Shown in pieces: positions 5,069-16,641 of a stretch of 17,619 nt of DNA. Position numbers and translations under genes: made by a program. Source of the stretch: Gemmatimonadota bacterium (lineage in GTDB: Bacteria; GCA-2686955); the NCBI GenBank assembly GCA_002686955.1, contig NYZA01000113.1:1-17619 (forward strand), read 5' to 3'. Under the pieces are notes generated by a model that did no database searches, was not told the origin of the DNA, and saw only the letters and a list, made by a program, of their open reading frames with translations. Numbering within the stretch: position 1 is the stretch's first letter; every line of letters begins with the position of its first letter.

Positions 5069-6658
5069 TCACTCCGTGAGAGTAACGATTCGTTCAGGAT
5101 CGGCGGCGGCGAGCGCCCTCGTCTCGTCTACCTTGACCCAGAGATCGTCCTTCGTGAGGACGCCGTCCAGCAGGTCGATCGTTTCTCCGAGCTGGTGGTC
5201 CGCTTCGAGACCGAATCGATAACCCGCCTCCATTCCGTGCAGCTTGGTCGCGATCTGGCGGCTGATGGCGCTGACGATGTACTCCCTGTCCTCTTCGAGC
5301 TCAACGTCGTCGAACTCGATCTCGGCCTCTCGAAGGTGCTGGCTGAACTCGTAGAGCATCTCATCGCTCACCCGCGGTCGATCTCCGAGATCGCGATCGG
5401 ATGAGGTCGCCTCGACAGCGAACTTGAAGAAGAGGTCCTTGCGGAGGATGTCGATGAGAAGCCGTGACGCCTCGGGAGCCTCCACGACGACATCCGGCTT
5501 GATTCCACCGCCACCTTCGATCGGCCGTCCGGACTCGGTCTTGAAATGCTCCGGCTCCTCGTCTTCGTCCGAAGCGCTCTTGCCGCTACGATGCTCCGGC
5601 CGGTGGATCGAGCGGCCGCTGGGCGTGTAGTACAGCGCCGTCGTCAGCTTCAAGGCGGTGCCCGACGACAGGTTTCGGACCGTTTGGACCGACCCTTTCC
5701 CATAGGTGCTCACGCCGAGGACGACTCCGATGTCGTAGTCCTGAATGGCACCGGAGACAATCTCTGAAGCGCTTGCGGTGCCGTCGTTTACCATCACTAC
5801 AAGCGGGATTTCGCCCAGAATCGACCGGTGCGGTGCCGCCCATTCCCGGCTATCGGAGGGGTGGCGGCCTTTGGTGTAGACGACGAGCTTCCCTTTCTCG
5901 ACGAAGAGATCGGCCACCGCGACGGCCTGCTCGAGCAGTCCACCGGAGTTGTTCCGTAGATCGAGGATCATCGCCCGGACATCTTGATCGAGCAGATCTT
6001 CCATCGCGAGCGCCAGCTCTTCACTGGCCACCTCGGAGAAATTGACCAGGCGTACGTAGCCGATCCGGTCGCCGACCACGCCGGCGAAGGGGATCGATTT
6101 GATCGCGATCACATCGCGTGTGATGGTGAAGTCGAAAGGATCGGAGATTCCGGCACGGGCGATCGTGATCGTCACGTCAGTGCCCTTCGGCCCACGCAGC
6201 TTCGTGACCGCCTCTTCGGTCGTGATGCCATCGGTGGGCTCGCCCTCGATCGCCACGATCCGATCTCCCGCCTCGATCCCTTTCTGCCAGGCGGGTGTGC
6301 CCTCCATCGGAGACATGACCGTGAGGAAGTCGTCCCGAATCGAGATGACGATTCCGAGCCCCCCAAAGCTGCCCTTGGTATCGATCCGCAGCTCACCGTA
6401 GGCCGTCTCGTCGAGAAAGACCGAGTGGGCATCGAGATCGCGCATCATGCCCCGAATAGACGAATGAACGAGGTCCTTGGCGTCTATATCGTCGACGTAG
6501 TTCCGTTTCACTTCGTCGAGCACCTCGGTGAAGAGATGCACGTAACTGTAGGTGCCGCTGGCCGTGGCCTGCACATACCCGTCGGTCATGAATCCGAGAA
6601 AAACGCCACTCACGAGAATCGTGCAAGTGGTCACCAGGATCGATCGCGCATTCCGCAT
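5069..6658 (-). CDS. ctpA: C-terminal processing peptidase, S41 family (CtpA/Prc type)
   Basis: A 529-residue periplasmic or membrane-anchored serine protease that trims or degrades proteins from the C-terminus. The ATG at 6658 is preferred to one at 6697 because GGAGG stands 8 bases upstream, and it begins with a signal anchor (about residues 6-24). A helical N-terminal segment (35-95) is followed by a PDZ domain (about 97-170, GGLGIVI...GIEAGDRIVAIEG). The S41 core comes next: GYVRLVNFSE, LDLRNNSGGLLEQAV, then NDGTASASEIVSGA and STYGKGSVQT. The expected Ser/Lys/Gln catalytic set falls at Ser296, Lys321 and Gln325, with the same spacing as in CtpB. The usual NPGG is NSGG here. The C-terminal 130 residues are acidic and beyond the core, with GGGIKPDVVV marking the domain end. 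It lies between tmk and the sigma gene; an extended -10 promoter candidate lies about 100 bases upstream. Confidence 0.95.
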   Translation of the reverse strand: MRNARSILVTTCTILVSGVFLGFMTDGYVQATASGTYSYVHLFTEVLDEVKRNYVDDIDAKDLVHSSIRGMMRDLDAHSVFLDETAYGELRIDTKGSFGGLGIVISIRDDFLTVMSPMEGTPAWQKGIEAGDRIVAIEGEPTDGITTEEAVTKLRGPKGTDVTITIARAGISDPFDFTITRDVIAIKSIPFAGVVGDRIGYVRLVNFSEVASEELALAMEDLLDQDVRAMILDLRNNSGGLLEQAVAVADLFVEKGKLVVYTKGRHPSDSREWAAPHRSILGEIPLVVMVNDGTASASEIVSGAIQDYDIGVVLGVSTYGKGSVQTVRNLSSGTALKLTTALYYTPSGRSIHRPEHRSGKSASDEDEEPEHFKTESGRPIEGGGGIKPDVVVEAPEASRLLIDILRKDLFFKFAVEATSSDRDLGDRPRVSDEMLYEFSQHLREAEIEFDDVELEEDREYIVSAISRQIATKLHGMEAGYRFGLEADHQLGETIDLLDGVLTKDDLWVKVDETRALAAADPERIVTLTE

Positions 6659-6755
6659 TGAGCGGTCCTCCGATGGCAATGGCTCTGTTCGGATCATCGG
6701 GCAGTTTTGCCTTCGAGGCCAGTCGAGCGCCGGGTTCGAGCAGTCCGGCTCCTAG

Positions 6756-6764
6756 ATTCTATCA
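6756..6764 (-). promoter_or_regulatory. candidate extended -10 promoter upstream of ctpA
   Basis: On the minus strand the sequence reads TGATAGAAT, a TGn extension followed by a 5/6 match to TATAAT. It lies in the 126-base gap after tmk. I see no matching -35, which fits extended -10 promoters. It would give a leader of about 90 bases and let ctpA be expressed apart from the upstream genes. Confidence 0.35.
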
Positions 6765-6784
6765 TCCGGCCCACGCAGGACTCG

Positions 6785-7432
6785 CTACGTTGAAAGGCCT
6801 TTTCTGTTCCCACTTTCCAGCCACCGACGCACCTCTTGGGCGATCCTCTCGCCCAGAGCGTCCGGTGAAAGCGTGCCGTCGAGCAGGAGAAAGCTCTCCG
6901 GCTCGGCCCGCGCCTGCCGAAGGTAGCCCGCGCGCACACGCTCGTGGAAATCGATCGATTCCCGCTCGATTCGGTCGACCCGCCCGCCGCTGCGTGCCCG
7001 TGCCCTCTGAATGCCGATACCGGCTTCCACATCGAGCAGGATCGTGTGATCGGGACGGAGACCTCCGGTCGCGAATTCGTTGAGCCAGACGACCGAGTCC
7101 AGCGATACGCCGCGTCCACCCCCTTGGTAGGCCACGCTTGCATGATAGAAGCGATCGCAGACCACCACGGCTCCCCGTGCGAGTGCGGGCCGGATCAGCT
7201 GATCGACATGCTGCGCACGACTCGCCTGAAAGAGCAGGAGCTCAGCGCGCGGGCACAGACGCTGCTTCGGATCGAGAAGAAGGGAGCGGATCGCCTCGGA
7301 GGCCGGAACGTCGATCCCGCCGGGCTCACGGCTCAGCACCACCTCGTATCCGAGCCTCTCCAACTCGAGCCGCAGAAGCGAGCACTGGGTCGACTTCCCC
7401 GAACCCTCGATCCCTTCGAATGTGAGGAACAC
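6785..7432 (-). CDS. tmk: thymidylate kinase (dTMP kinase)
   Basis: A 215-residue cytosolic enzyme phosphorylating dTMP to dTDP in dTTP synthesis, EC 2.7.4.9. The P-loop GIEGSGKST is at residues 7-15. The substrate loop SREPGG is at 34-39 and the DR motif VCDRFYHASVAYQGGGR at about 91-107. An Arg-rich LID segment follows (RARARSGGRVDRIERE, about 143-158). Length is normal for the family. The start is GTG at 7432, only 16 bases after the stop of the inositol-phosphate synthase gene, with a weak AAGAGA ribosome site. An ATG is not available without losing the first beta-strand. Position in the run suggests co-transcription with the inositol genes, but a functional link is not implied. Confidence 0.95.
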   Translation of the reverse strand: MFLTFEGIEGSGKSTQCSLLRLELERLGYEVVLSREPGGIDVPASEAIRSLLLDPKQRLCPRAELLLFQASRAQHVDQLIRPALARGAVVVCDRFYHASVAYQGGGRGVSLDSVVWLNEFATGGLRPDHTILLDVEAGIGIQRARARSGGRVDRIERESIDFHERVRAGYLRQARAEPESFLLLDGTLSPDALGERIAQEVRRWLESGNRKGLST

Positions 7433-7448: not shown

Positions 7449-8768
7449 TCACTTCGATTCGTAATAGTCGAGCCCGAGGTGGGTGATGAGATCTTCTCCC
7501 ATCATGTGGCGCAAAGTGTTCTTCAGCTTCGTCTTCTGGATGAAGAGGTCGTGCTCCGGGTAGAGATCGGGGGCGCACATCGGCGACTTGAAGTAGAAAG
7601 AGAGCCACTCCTGGATTCCGCCCATCCCCGCACGCTCGGCCAGGTCGAGGAAGATGGCGAGATCGAGAACGATCGGTGCGGCAAGAATCGAATCGCGGCA
7701 GAGAAAGTCGATCTTGATCTGCATCGGGTAGCCGAGCCACCCCTTGATGTCGATGTTGTCCCACCCCTCTTTGTTGTCGCCTCGGGGCGGGTAGTAGTTG
7801 ATCCGGACCTTGTGATAGAGGTCGCCATACAGCTCGGGAAAACGCTCCGGCTCGAGAATCTGCTCGAGAACGCCCAACTTGGAGACCTCTTTCGACTTGA
7901 AACTCTCGGGGTCGTCGAGCACTTCTCCGTCGCGGTTGCCGAGGATGTTCGTCGAGAACCAGCCGTCGATCCCGAGCAGGCGGGCCTTGAAGCCGGGAGC
8001 GAGCATCGTCTTCATCAGGGTCTGCCCCGTCTTGAAGTCTTTCCCGGCCACCGGCATGCCGGTTTCGGCAACCAGCTCGTGCATCGCCGGAAAGTCGACC
8101 GAGAGGTTCGGCGCGCCGTTGGCGAAGGGCACCCTCTCTTTCAAGGCGGCGTAGGCATAGAGCATCGATGGAGCGATCTCGGCGGAGCTCTCGTCGATCC
8201 CCCGCTCGAAGCTCGCGAGATCTCGGTGGATGGCGGAGGTCGGGCCCTGATAGACCTCGGTGCTGCCGCACCACACCATGACGCATCGCTCGAGCTCATG
8301 CGTGGCCCTGAAACGGCGGATGTCTTCTCTAAGCTCTTCCACCTTCTCGCGCAGACTCCCCTTCTTCACGTTCGGTCCATCGAGGTTCTTGACATGGCGG
8401 CGATCGAAGAGCGCGGGCATCGGACGGATCGCCTCGAGCTCTTCGCGCACCGGGTCGAGCATCTCGCTCGCGAGCACACCGGATCGACGGGCGGCGGCGT
8501 AGCAATCCTCTTCGAAGATGTCCCAGCCCCCAAAGACGAGGTCGCCGATCTTCGCCAGCGGGGCGAAATCCTGGATCGGAACATGCCGCCGATCGGTCCG
8601 CTTGCCAAGGCGCAGGGTGCCCATCTGCGTCAACGATCCAAGGGGTCTGGCCAGACCCCGGCGGATTGCCGCGACGCCGGCGACGAAAGTGGTGCTGACG
8701 GCGCCCATGCCGGGCAGAAGCACGCCCAGACGCCCGGACGCCGGTCTGATGGTTGCGGGTGTTTGCAT
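7449..8768 (-). CDS. ino1: myo-inositol-1-phosphate (inositol-3-phosphate) synthase
   Basis: A 439-residue NAD-dependent enzyme that converts glucose 6-phosphate to 1D-myo-inositol 3-phosphate, EC 5.5.1.4. The N-terminal dinucleotide-binding turn is GVLLPGMGAVSTTFVAG (about 15-31). Family blocks follow: GSLTQMGTLRLGKRTD, FGGWDIFEEDCY, AGKDFKTGQTLMKT, then NILGNRDGEVLDDPESF with the Lys-containing SKEVSKLG. After these come KIDFLCRDSILAAP and DLAIFLDLAERAG. All the blocks of the active site region appear intact, and the length is normal. The ATG at 8768 lies 14 bases after the stop of the PfkB kinase gene, with GAGGA about 10 bases upstream. The same frame stays open far upstream to 9593, but that part is antisense shadow. 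Its product is the head-group donor expected by the CDP-alcohol phosphatidyltransferase two genes upstream. Confidence 0.95.
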   Translation of the reverse strand: MQTPATIRPASGRLGVLLPGMGAVSTTFVAGVAAIRRGLARPLGSLTQMGTLRLGKRTDRRHVPIQDFAPLAKIGDLVFGGWDIFEEDCYAAARRSGVLASEMLDPVREELEAIRPMPALFDRRHVKNLDGPNVKKGSLREKVEELREDIRRFRATHELERCVMVWCGSTEVYQGPTSAIHRDLASFERGIDESSAEIAPSMLYAYAALKERVPFANGAPNLSVDFPAMHELVAETGMPVAGKDFKTGQTLMKTMLAPGFKARLLGIDGWFSTNILGNRDGEVLDDPESFKSKEVSKLGVLEQILEPERFPELYGDLYHKVRINYYPPRGDNKEGWDNIDIKGWLGYPMQIKIDFLCRDSILAAPIVLDLAIFLDLAERAGMGGIQEWLSFYFKSPMCAPDLYPEHDLFIQKTKLKNTLRHMMGEDLITHLGLDYYESK

Positions 8769-8782
8769 CTTCTGCGAATCCT

Positions 8783-9673
8783 CTACGAAATGCTCGCGAC
8801 GCGCCGCCGCGCCTCGTCGATGGTCAAGCCGAATTCGGGGCCGGTGTGTTCGATCATGAGGGACGAGACCGAGGAGCCCCATCGCCCCGCGACGTCGAGT
8901 GCGCCGCCTCCCGACTCCAGGAAGGAGTGGACGAAGCCCGCCATGTAGGTGTCTCCCGCGCCGGTCGAGTCGCGGGCAAGGGTCTCGTACGGCGGGATCT
9001 CGAGGTAGGTGGAGCCGTCGAAGATCACCGAACCCGCTTCCGCGAGGGTGACGACCGCGATATCGCAGCCCCGGGCGTGAATCTCTCGCACCGATCGCGT
9101 TGGGTCGTGCCGGGGATCGGTCCCCGTGATGATCCTGGCCTCGTGCTCGTTCGGCTTGGCGATATGGCTGAGCGAGATTCCCTCGTCCACCGCCGGTCCC
9201 GCCACCCGTTGAATCCGCCGTCCATCGAGCACACGCATCAATCCCTGAACATCGAGCACACGCAGAGCGTCGGAGCGTTCGGCGACATCGCGCATGTGCC
9301 CGACACCGCACTCGCCCAGAATCGGTCCGAATATCACCGCGTTGCAATCGTCGGGAATCTCCCCGGTCTCGCCGATCGGATCGGCGATGCCGAGAACATC
9401 GAGGGTCCGGTCGCCGGTCTCGTCGTAGATCAGCCGAAATCCCCCGCTTTCGGCGCAGCGGCCGACGCGGTGGGTGATGCCGAAGCGCTCCATATCGTCG
9501 ATGAAGCAGTCGTGGTAGTCGTCGCCGATGTTGCCGACGAGTATGGTCGAGTGACCGAGAGCCGCCAGTGCCAGGCAGGCGTTCGTCGAGCAACCGGAGA
9601 GCACTCGCCCTTCGGTGCGGACGTGGGCGGTGACGATGTAGTCGTAGACCGGATTGCCGATGCCGAGAATCAC
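8783..9673 (-). CDS. PfkB-family carbohydrate kinase, possible inositol kinase
   Basis: A 296-residue ribokinase-fold kinase. The N-terminal substrate segment (MILGIGNPVYDYI, then SGCSTNACLALAALG) is followed by VGNIGDDYHD, the KPNEHEA motif (about 173-179) and the C-terminal signature DSTGAGDTYMAGF (235-247), in which Asp241 is the expected catalytic base. The second residue of the signature is Ser rather than the common Thr. The start is GTG at 9673. It overlaps the upstream stop as GTGA, with GGAGGGG five bases before it, so translation is coupled to the phosphatidyltransferase. The stop is 14 bases before ino1. Substrate cannot be read from sequence. Its place between an inositol-phosphate synthase and a phosphatidyltransferase makes free myo-inositol a reasonable candidate; a nucleoside or sugar is the alternative. 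Confidence 0.88.
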   Translation of the reverse strand: MILGIGNPVYDYIVTAHVRTEGRVLSGCSTNACLALAALGHSTILVGNIGDDYHDCFIDDMERFGITHRVGRCAESGGFRLIYDETGDRTLDVLGIADPIGETGEIPDDCNAVIFGPILGECGVGHMRDVAERSDALRVLDVQGLMRVLDGRRIQRVAGPAVDEGISLSHIAKPNEHEARIITGTDPRHDPTRSVREIHARGCDIAVVTLAEAGSVIFDGSTYLEIPPYETLARDSTGAGDTYMAGFVHSFLESGGGALDVAGRWGSSVSSLMIEHTGPEFGLTIDEARRRVASIS

Positions 9674-10335
9674 TGCGGCCCCTCCGCGCCCCCGACTCGA
9701 TCGCGTTCGATGGCGGCGCTCGTCTGCTCTGATGAGTTCAACTGAATCGCGGCGAAACGCAGGCGCTGCATCGCCGTGTACAGGCTCGTGACGGCAGTGA
9801 TGACAACGCCGAGCTGAAGCGGGCCGAAATCGGGCAAGGCGGTCTTATCGACCAGAATCTGCAAGAGACCGCCGGCCGCGATGATGATCATCTTCTCGGC
9901 CCGGCCGACGACGCCGACCTCGCAGCTCTCCAATCCGCCCTTCGACTCCGCCACCGCGCGGGTGTACGACGCCATGAGCATGCCGAAGACCGCCGCGAGC
10001 ACCCAGTAGTCGGCCACGCGGCCACCGAGCATGATCCCCAGGAGAAAGAGGAACTCGGCGTATCGGTCCGACACCATGTCGAGAACCTGGCCGTAGCGAG
10101 TCACGCGCCCGCTGGCCCTGGCGGTGGCCCCGTCGAGCATATCGAGCAGACCCACCAGTCCGAAAAGCACCAACGCGGCGAAGATCCGGTTGATCGCGAA
10201 GAAGTAGCACGACCCGACCGCGATCGCCACACTGGTGCCGGTGATCACATTCGGCGTGATCCCTGCGGCGGCGCAGAGGCGTCCCCACGCGAGCGTGAAG
10301 CTCTCGTACTCCGCCCGAATCTTGCGGTTCAACAT
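9670..10335 (-). CDS. CDP-alcohol phosphatidyltransferase, probable phosphatidylinositol-phosphate synthase
   Basis: A 221-residue integral membrane enzyme that transfers a phosphatidyl group from CDP-diacylglycerol (or a related lipid) to an alcohol. The complete family signature D-x2-D-G-x2-A-R-x8-G-x3-D-x3-D is present (Asp65, Asp68, Gly69, Ala72-Arg73, Gly82, Asp86, Asp90). The segments SYTRAVAESKGG and VGVVGRAEKMI resemble the acceptor side of phosphatidyl- and archaetidylinositol-phosphate synthases, where basic residues hold inositol phosphate. About six hydrophobic stretches follow the N-terminal amphipathic LNRKIRAEYESF. The ATG at 10335 has no clear ribosome site but begins the protein as relatives do. 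It overlaps the kinase gene by four bases, and ino1 follows that, so inositol 3-phosphate is the likely acceptor. Class is firm; the acceptor is inferred. Confidence 0.9.
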   Translation of the reverse strand: MLNRKIRAEYESFTLAWGRLCAAAGITPNVITGTSVAIAVGSCYFFAINRIFAALVLFGLVGLLDMLDGATARASGRVTRYGQVLDMVSDRYAEFLFLLGIMLGGRVADYWVLAAVFGMLMASYTRAVAESKGGLESCEVGVVGRAEKMIIIAAGGLLQILVDKTALPDFGPLQLGVVITAVTSLYTAMQRLRFAAIQLNSSEQTSAAIERDRVGGAEGPQ

Positions 10336-15854: not shown

Positions 15855-16292
15855 CTACTGTCGGAGCGGATCCCGGACCTCGACGAAGGGGAAACGGTGG
15901 AAATCGGTGTCTCTCGTGTAGATGGTCCGGATTCCGTGTTCCCGCATGAGCACGGCGGTATGACCGTCGTGCACCAGATTGCCGCGAAGATCGGGAACCT
16001 CGTCCAACACGGAGCGCGCGACGACCGGGTGGCGCTCGGTCTCGACCAATACCGAAAAGCTGGGCGAGGCGAGCAACGCATCGACGAACGCCCAAGCCTG
16101 GACCGCGGACCACGGAGATCGAAAGACACGCCGATGCGTCGTCACGCGGACGAATTCGTAGAGGATGCCCCAGGTCGAGTACCAGGCCGACGCCTGGCCC
16201 AGCCACTGCTCGAGCAGGCCCCGGCAGGGCTCATGCTCCTCGAACGACCTATCCGCGGCGTAGATCAGCAGATTCGTATCGACCACGAACAC
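15855..16292 (-). CDS. vapC: VapC-type PIN-domain toxin ribonuclease
   Basis: A 145-residue PIN-domain protein, expected to be a metal-dependent RNase toxin. The acidic active-site residues are Asp5 in VVDTNLLIYA, Glu46 in WGILYEFVRV, Asp109 in GNLVHDGHTAVLMREHG, and Asp128/Asp130 in IYTRDTDFHRF. The third motif is DGHTAVL where relatives often have DAHIAAL. The set is complete, so activity is plausible. The start is GTG at 16292, two bases after the antitoxin stop, with GGAGG 10 bases upstream inside the antitoxin gene. The pair forms an operon between two glycan-related genes. Confidence 0.92.
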   Translation of the reverse strand: MFVVDTNLLIYAADRSFEEHEPCRGLLEQWLGQASAWYSTWGILYEFVRVTTHRRVFRSPWSAVQAWAFVDALLASPSFSVLVETERHPVVARSVLDEVPDLRGNLVHDGHTAVLMREHGIRTIYTRDTDFHRFPFVEVRDPLRQ

Positions 16293-16294
16293 CG

Positions 16295-16522
16295 CTAGCG
16301 CGCCTCCATCGCCTGATAGAGGGCATCTCGATCGGAAACGTCGACGATGGCCCCTCCCCCATCGAAGGAGGGAAGATCCGGAAGCTCCGCCGTCGTCCGG
16401 GGGCGCTGAAGAAAACGCCTGAGCGCCGACTCGACCAGCTCCGACATCGGCCGCCCCTGCTTCGCGGCCTCCTGCCGCAACCGCGCCATCACGCCGTCGT
16501 CGATGATCATTGTGGTCTTCAT
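16295..16522 (-). CDS. vapB: VapB-type ribbon-helix-helix antitoxin
   Basis: A 75-residue antitoxin. The N-terminal MKTTMIIDDGVMARLRQEAA and PMSELVESALRRFL form a ribbon-helix-helix DNA-binding unit. The C-terminal LPSFDGGGAIVDVSDRDALY matches the toxin-wrapping tail of VapB partners. The ATG at 16522 is chosen because residues from it align with the fold, and upstream in-frame codons encode unrelated residues. It has no ribosome site, and the predicted transcription start lies within a few bases of the ATG, so a leaderless mRNA is likely. The protein probably represses its own promoter through the palindrome just upstream. Confidence 0.9.
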   Translation of the reverse strand: MKTTMIIDDGVMARLRQEAAKQGRPMSELVESALRRFLQRPRTTAELPDLPSFDGGGAIVDVSDRDALYQAMEAR

Positions 16523-16529
16523 ATGGAAA

Positions 16530-16558
16530 AGCATATGCTGTTTACGGATGGGAATCAA
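16530..16558 (-). promoter_or_regulatory. vapBC promoter with overlapping palindromic operator
   Basis: On the minus strand TTGATT (16553-16558) and TATGCT (16530-16535) are separated by exactly 17 bases, a sigma-70 type arrangement. The -10 is embedded in the perfect palindrome AGCATATGCT (16530-16539), and a second CATATG lies at 16520-16525 across the start codon. This is the place and form expected for autoregulation by a ribbon-helix-helix antitoxin. Only 7 bases separate the -10 from the ATG. Confidence 0.6.
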
Positions 16559-16641
16559 GCTCAGGGGCAAGCCCATCCGCTCCGGCGGAGCTAAAGTCCG
16601 TCCATGTCCAACTCACCGACGGAAACGACGACACCAAACAG

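Follow-up and report, generated by a model that had tools for sequence, protein, structure and literature searches.

A predicted myo-inositol kinase paired with a phosphatidylinositol phosphate synthase-like phosphatidyltransferase in a three-gene cassette of a Gemmatimonadota bacterium

The synthesis of phosphatidylinositol by way of phosphatidylinositol phosphate (PIP), the linkage of some phosphatidyltransferases to myo-inositol-3-phosphate synthase (MIPS), and the existence of inositol kinases are each already known. Here we analyse a cassette in which all three elements meet: a CDP-alcohol (cytidine diphosphate-alcohol) phosphatidyltransferase (PT), a PfkB-family kinase and a MIPS, encoded together on a stretch of 17,619 nucleotides from a Gemmatimonadota bacterium (contig NYZA01000113.1 of assembly GCA_002686955.1; this whole stretch is called the window below). 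To our knowledge, neither enzyme of the kinase/PT unit has been assayed from any organism, and a search of the open-licence literature found nothing relevant on a PfkB or inositol kinase gene linked to phosphatidylinositol synthesis or to a CDP-alcohol phosphatidyltransferase. It is probable, in our judgement strongly so, that phosphatidylinositol is made here from one intermediate, inositol 3-phosphate, which both MIPS and the kinase supply.

Four described systems are closest. The myo-inositol 3-kinase (MI3K) of Thermococcus kodakarensis (3w4s/4xf7) shares with the kinase its five inositol-binding residues and a hydrophobic pocket (L77/L87/V112, here L81/L91/I118), but whole-chain identity is only about 17%, and the gene described here is tied to a PT. 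The pyrophosphate (PPi)-dependent myo-inositol 1-kinase TM0415 of Thermotoga maritima (5ysp, mutant 7e4l) is the closest in overall structure and has the same D, Q and R acceptor residues. Unlike TM0415, the kinase lacks the RXGRGD motif, has leucines at the positions that govern 1- or 3-phosphorylation, and is not part of a catabolic cluster. The PT resembles the actinobacterial phosphatidylinositol phosphate synthases (PIPS; MtPIPS/PgsA1 and RsPIPS) and the archaeal archaetidylinositol phosphate (AIP) synthase in its fold, its CDP-alcohol motif and most of its acceptor-pocket residues; it differs from them in having K148 in place of R155, in scoring under the NCBIfam equivalog cut-offs, and in being linked to a kinase. 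Finally, the BT_1522-1526 cluster of Bacteroides thetaiotaomicron, in the part of the published account consulted (PMC9246714), has a MIPS of the type found here, for which a structure is described, and close to it a CDP-alcohol transferase. That part of the account places a PIP phosphatase (BT_1525) and a phosphatidylinositol-dihydroceramide synthase (BT_1522) in the cluster, neither of which is in the window cassette, and mentions no kinase, which is present here.

The three genes all lie on the minus strand, in the order PT, kinase, MIPS. The preliminary description of the window, which proposed a compact inositol-phospholipid cassette containing a PfkB kinase, gave the trio as tightly coupled by a GTGA overlap and a 14-base spacing, and this layout is borne out. 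The features are as follows.

9670..10335, minus strand: CDP-alcohol phosphatidyltransferase (PT), assigned to a PIPS-like sister subfamily; 221 aa; PF01066 59.8 bits against a cut-off of 22
9670..9673, minus strand: 4-base GTGA overlap of the PT stop and the kinase start, read from the sequence and its open reading frames (ORFs)
8783..9673, minus strand: PfkB/ribokinase-family kinase, predicted ATP-dependent myo-inositol 3-kinase; 296 aa, GTG start; PF00294 92 bits
9233..9256, minus strand: predicted acceptor-binding motif LDVQGLMR of the kinase (Q143, R147); in the alignment to 3w4s these two residues fall on Q136/R140 of Thermococcus MI3K
8769..8782, minus strand: 14-base gap between kinase and MIPS, with an AGAGGA Shine-Dalgarno-like stretch overlapping the kinase stop
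7449..8768, minus strand: MIPS of the Bacteroides BT_1526 type; 439 aa; PF07994 321 bits, PF01658 115 bits

The MIPS matches both families, PF07994 and PF01658, across its full length, and scores 555 bits against the solved structure 7nwr; no second MIPS was found in the genome, which is 84.5% complete. It would convert glucose 6-phosphate to D-myo-inositol 3-phosphate (Ins(3)P, the same compound as L-myo-inositol 1-phosphate). The kinase would make this same isomer from ATP and free myo-inositol, either salvaged or recycled. The PT would then transfer the phosphatidyl group of CDP-diacylglycerol onto Ins(3)P to give PIP, and a phosphatase encoded outside the cassette would convert this to phosphatidylinositol.

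The association of kinase and PT is widely conserved. When 84,980 species genomes were scanned with only the kinase as query, 80 loci came up, making 84 with the window and three relatives. In 80 of the 84 loci the kinase has next to it, in the same orientation, a PT of one single subfamily (79 within 1.5 kb, median gap 35 bases), and the survey thus supports the linkage for this pair, the PT profile having found nothing near other PfkB kinases (0 of 26 control loci). The three relatives are distant, with kinase orthologues of 32-49% identity, and the PT is adjacent in each. The loci span Chloroflexota, Zixibacteria, Calditrichota and archaea. The PT is downstream of the kinase in Chloroflexota and upstream elsewhere, and the adjacency has therefore been kept through rearrangement. 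Four loci have no adjacent PT: in three of them the genome, a fragmented assembly, carries the PT elsewhere (E < 1e-74), while the remaining locus has its kinase almost at the end of a contig, which stops directly behind it. Within a set of 98 genomes (the window's and its relatives), the PT subfamily (246-298 bits) is present only in the four genomes that have the kinase, the next PT scoring 146 bits. Several other PTs in these 98 genomes adjoin a MIPS without this kinase, so that ordinary PIPS-MIPS pairs do exist and it is the kinase that marks the variant. The distance matrices of kinase and PT have a correlation of 0.90 over 77 loci, which is given no weight because co-evolution is not separable here from shared ancestry.

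A second and separate pairing was also seen. In one genome (G025, contig C119; L132:1492-3035) the gene immediately after an Arg-type PIPS-like PT encodes another kind of PfkB kinase, in which the acceptor residues D, G, Q and R are retained but the two switch positions discussed below are occupied by N and Q. This genome is 98% complete and MIPS was not detected in it. The pairing supports the link between PT and inositol kinase, with perhaps a different product isomer.

The kinase family is an unnamed PfkB subfamily, for which NCBIfam gives no equivalog above cut-off. It carries the ribokinase motifs G238-[A/C/V]-G240-D241 and N175xxE178 in all 84 sequences. When a profile of the acceptor domain was compared with the PDB, the only matches were 3w4s, the Thermococcus MI3K (E 4e-8), and 7e4l (E 0.004). 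In MI3K the inositol-contacting residues are D12, G26, Q136, R140 and D219 (PMC5931981). These correspond to D11, G27, Q143, R147 and D241 of the kinase, which are invariant (84/84); Q143 and R147 were aligned to 3w4s, and D11, G27 and D241 were matched by their position in family motifs rather than from a printed alignment. While D11, G27 and GXGD are common to the PfkB family at large, the Q/R pair is not, being found in only one of 26 control PfkB proteins. The window kinase reads DVQG at this site, with V142, where 83 of the 84 sequences read DPQG.

The position of phosphorylation is suggested by a pair of leucines. According to the PDB title of 7e4l, the change N78L/S89L turned TM0415 from a myo-inositol 1-kinase into a 3-kinase. 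The switch positions L78/L89 of 7e4l are equivalent to L77/L87 of MI3K and to L81/L91 of the kinase, where both leucines are again invariant in the 84 sequences; the combination of Q, R and the two leucines occurs in none of the 26 controls. The AF2 model of the kinase (pLDDT 95) has inositol kinases as its top Foldseek matches, namely TM0415 and its N78L/S89L mutant. Superposition with TM0415 gives the highest Z score, 32.8, with a root mean square deviation of 2.4 over 270 residues.

As to the phosphate donor, a GXGD motif with a small second residue, together with the absence of RXGRGD, marks the ATP type according to a published rule (PMC5931981). The kinase has S, P or A at position 236 and A, C or V at 239 in all 84 sequences, and RXGRGD, the PPi-type motif, is therefore not present; the rule indicates ATP, and PPi was rejected as the donor. 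On the basis of residue conservation, predicted structure and gene neighbourhood, the kinase is most likely an ATP-dependent myo-inositol 3-kinase. The acceptor residues, the fold, the linkage and the genomes lacking a detected MIPS all point to free inositol as the probable substrate, one of the options raised in the preliminary description; nothing was found in support of its other option, in which some different head group receives the phosphate.

The PT has the motif D65xxD68G69xxA72R73...G82xxxD86xxxD90, which includes its catalytic aspartates and is invariant in 77 of 77 sequences. Its best NCBIfam matches are AIPS, at 126 of 180 bits, and PIPS, at 82 of 170 bits, both under the equivalog cut-offs. 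The AF2 model (pLDDT 93.9) is much nearer to PIPS structures (Z 19.5-21.4) than to phosphatidylglycerol phosphate (PGP) synthase (12.7) or phosphatidylserine synthase (10.6). PGP synthase, which the preliminary description had named as an activity that would overturn its proposal, was rejected as the role of the PT because of this far better fit and of a separate PgsA-like gene in the genome. By alignment, R91, S123, R126, R145 and R191 of the PT correspond to R94, S132, K135, R152 and R195 of MtPIPS, all being invariant in the 77 sequences, with K135 represented by Arg. The exception concerns an acceptor-phosphate residue, R155 of PIPS (R153 of RsPIPS), which is described as present without exception in PIP synthases and as required for their full activity (PMC4634129, PMC6506517). 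At this position the kinase-linked PTs have a lysine, K148, in 77 of 77 cases; the PIPS-like PTs of relatives outside the subfamily have Arg in 16 of 16. Because of this lysine and of the NCBIfam scores, the PT is placed in a sister subfamily and is treated as working like PIPS, its predicted acceptor being an inositol phosphate, rather than as a proven PIPS member.

The last step, dephosphorylation of PIP, would be carried out by an enzyme encoded elsewhere. The preliminary description had noted that no inositol-phosphate phosphatase is visible and that the product may remain PIP. This is true of the window only: on contig C128, which is not the cassette contig, a PgpA homologue lies close to the separate PgsA-like gene, and the genome also contains two genes of the inositol-monophosphatase family. 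Since the genome carries such candidates, and since the phosphatase need not sit in the cluster, the suggestion that PIP may be the end product is not supported. Inositol monophosphatase was considered as a marker of the pathway and dropped as uninformative, because genes of this family are found in all 36 kinase genomes tested and also in all 14 controls. Downstream of the cassette in eight loci (including L046:8649-9317 and L108:10141-10800) is a HAD-like, phosphatase-looking gene of about 220 aa, which on inspection by eye of only the beginning of its sequence is a possible PIP phosphatase.

MIPS was found in 39 of the 44 kinase genomes, compared with 42 of 98 in the sample of relatives, and the kinase is therefore ruled out as a general replacement for MIPS. 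An actinobacterial-type MIPS lies near the kinase-PT pair in 19 other loci and the Bacteroides type in the window, so that two types of MIPS are found beside the same pair. In five genomes with both kinase and PT, MIPS was not found by PF01658 or PF07994, and the kinase would therefore be the only source of inositol phosphate there. These are Candidatus Oscillochloris fontis (99% complete), Zixibacteria CP070756 (titled a chromosome), one metagenome-assembled genome (MAG) of candidate division GN15 and two small archaeal MAGs, the absence of MIPS from incomplete MAGs being weak evidence. The chances seem to us even that kinase and PT together suffice as a salvage pathway for phosphatidylinositol. 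On this reading, bacteria and archaea with the pair would phosphorylate free inositol before coupling it to lipid, would depend on this route alone where MIPS is lacking, and would use for it a distinct PT subfamily marked by the lysine.

The kinase may serve the uptake of inositol, its recycling, or both. A narrower form of the proposal, which we consider rather unlikely though it is the strongest of the alternatives, is that the kinase recaptures only inositol of intracellular origin, released when lipids are turned over or through the action of inositol monophosphatase, and none from outside. The frequency of MIPS in kinase genomes fits this idea, as does the universal presence of inositol-monophosphatase-family genes, which is however equally universal in the controls and hence says little; a transporter was not conspicuous among the genes that recur nearby, in a survey that included no search aimed at transporters. 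Genomes without a detected MIPS, on the other hand, must take their inositol from outside.

Several observations weigh against the assignment of the cassette to a two-source phosphatidylinositol pathway. The presence of MIPS in most kinase genomes leaves the need for the kinase there unexplained. The kinase is just 16-23% identical to characterised inositol kinases, and in structural comparison nucleoside kinases and ribokinase trail the inositol kinases by only about 1-2 Z units; for this reason the overall fold does not fix the substrate, and it is the residues that carry the argument. The invariant K173, two residues before NXXE, is equivalent to K171 of TM0415, the only one of its three PPi-binding residues to have a counterpart here, and is a loose end. 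The lysine of the PT departs from the PIPS pattern, and many of the 84 loci are close relatives and not independent.

The lysine also leads to a second alternative, namely that the kinase uses another cyclitol or another position (for example scyllo-inositol, or O-1 of myo-inositol) and that the Lys-type PT makes a different cyclitol phospholipid. The strict division between Lys and Arg is in its favour, and the phosphorylated position does vary among kinases of the TM0415 family (PMC5931981). Nevertheless this is improbable: a lysine retains the positive charge, both leucines of the engineered 3-kinase are invariant in the kinase, and MIPS, the maker of Ins(3)P, sits in the same cassettes. 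Least probable of all is that the kinase acts on a nucleoside or ordinary sugar and adjoins the PT without any pathway meaning, for although nucleoside kinases and ribokinase are close in fold, the top full-length PDB profile match is 3kd6, titled a Chlorobium nucleoside kinase, and NCBIfam offers no equivalog, the acceptor domain matches inositol kinases only, and the linkage extends over phyla and domains with rearranged gene order and strict co-occurrence.

Upstream of the cassette is rsgA, and downstream are two genes that recur elsewhere.

6785..7432, minus strand: thymidylate kinase (PF02223, TIGR00041), found in 16 other loci too, at the corresponding side of the cassette
5069..6697, minus strand: S41 C-terminal processing peptidase (PF03572), with a homologue in 15 other loci

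This arrangement (5069-7432) after the cassette, seen in about 15-16 other loci, is mostly found in Zixibacteria, and a functional reason is not apparent; the thymidylate kinase is given no part in the mechanism. The flanking genes scanned with Pfam comprise RsgA, a CoA transferase, the thymidylate kinase, the S41 peptidase, a sigma factor and glycosyltransferases. Further away, and also on the minus strand, a pair of small ORFs (15855-16576) has, to the eye, the appearance of a PIN-domain toxin (15855-16292) with its antitoxin (16295-16576). A secreted-looking protein (241-1905) ends in a domain that, again by eye, is similar to those of the C-terminal sorting or FlgD-like kind in FCB-group bacteria, which may be a clue to the affiliation of the host.

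The preliminary description is thus supported as regards an inositol-phospholipid cassette with a kinase for free inositol; the retention of PIP, as noted above, is not, nor is its remark that such lipids are poorly known outside Actinobacteria, some Bacteroidota and archaea. Phosphatidylinositol has been reported in Chloroflexus, for which direct lipid data were not found in the literature searched. An isolate of the Chloroflexota, from a different class than the loci described here, is reported to have it among its major lipids (PMC12453558), and the remark is therefore too narrow.

The conserved inositol-kinase/PT unit would thus appear to be a variant of the phosphatidylinositol pathway that is not described in the open literature searched. 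It can be recognised by a sequence signature, the kinase motif together with Lys148 in the PT, and it gives a specific and testable function to an unnamed kinase family of several bacterial phyla and archaea. A cell with this unit could build its inositol lipid both from inositol of its own making and from inositol taken up and, if the proposal is true, many environmental microbes can make inositol lipids from inositol that they have scavenged or recycled.

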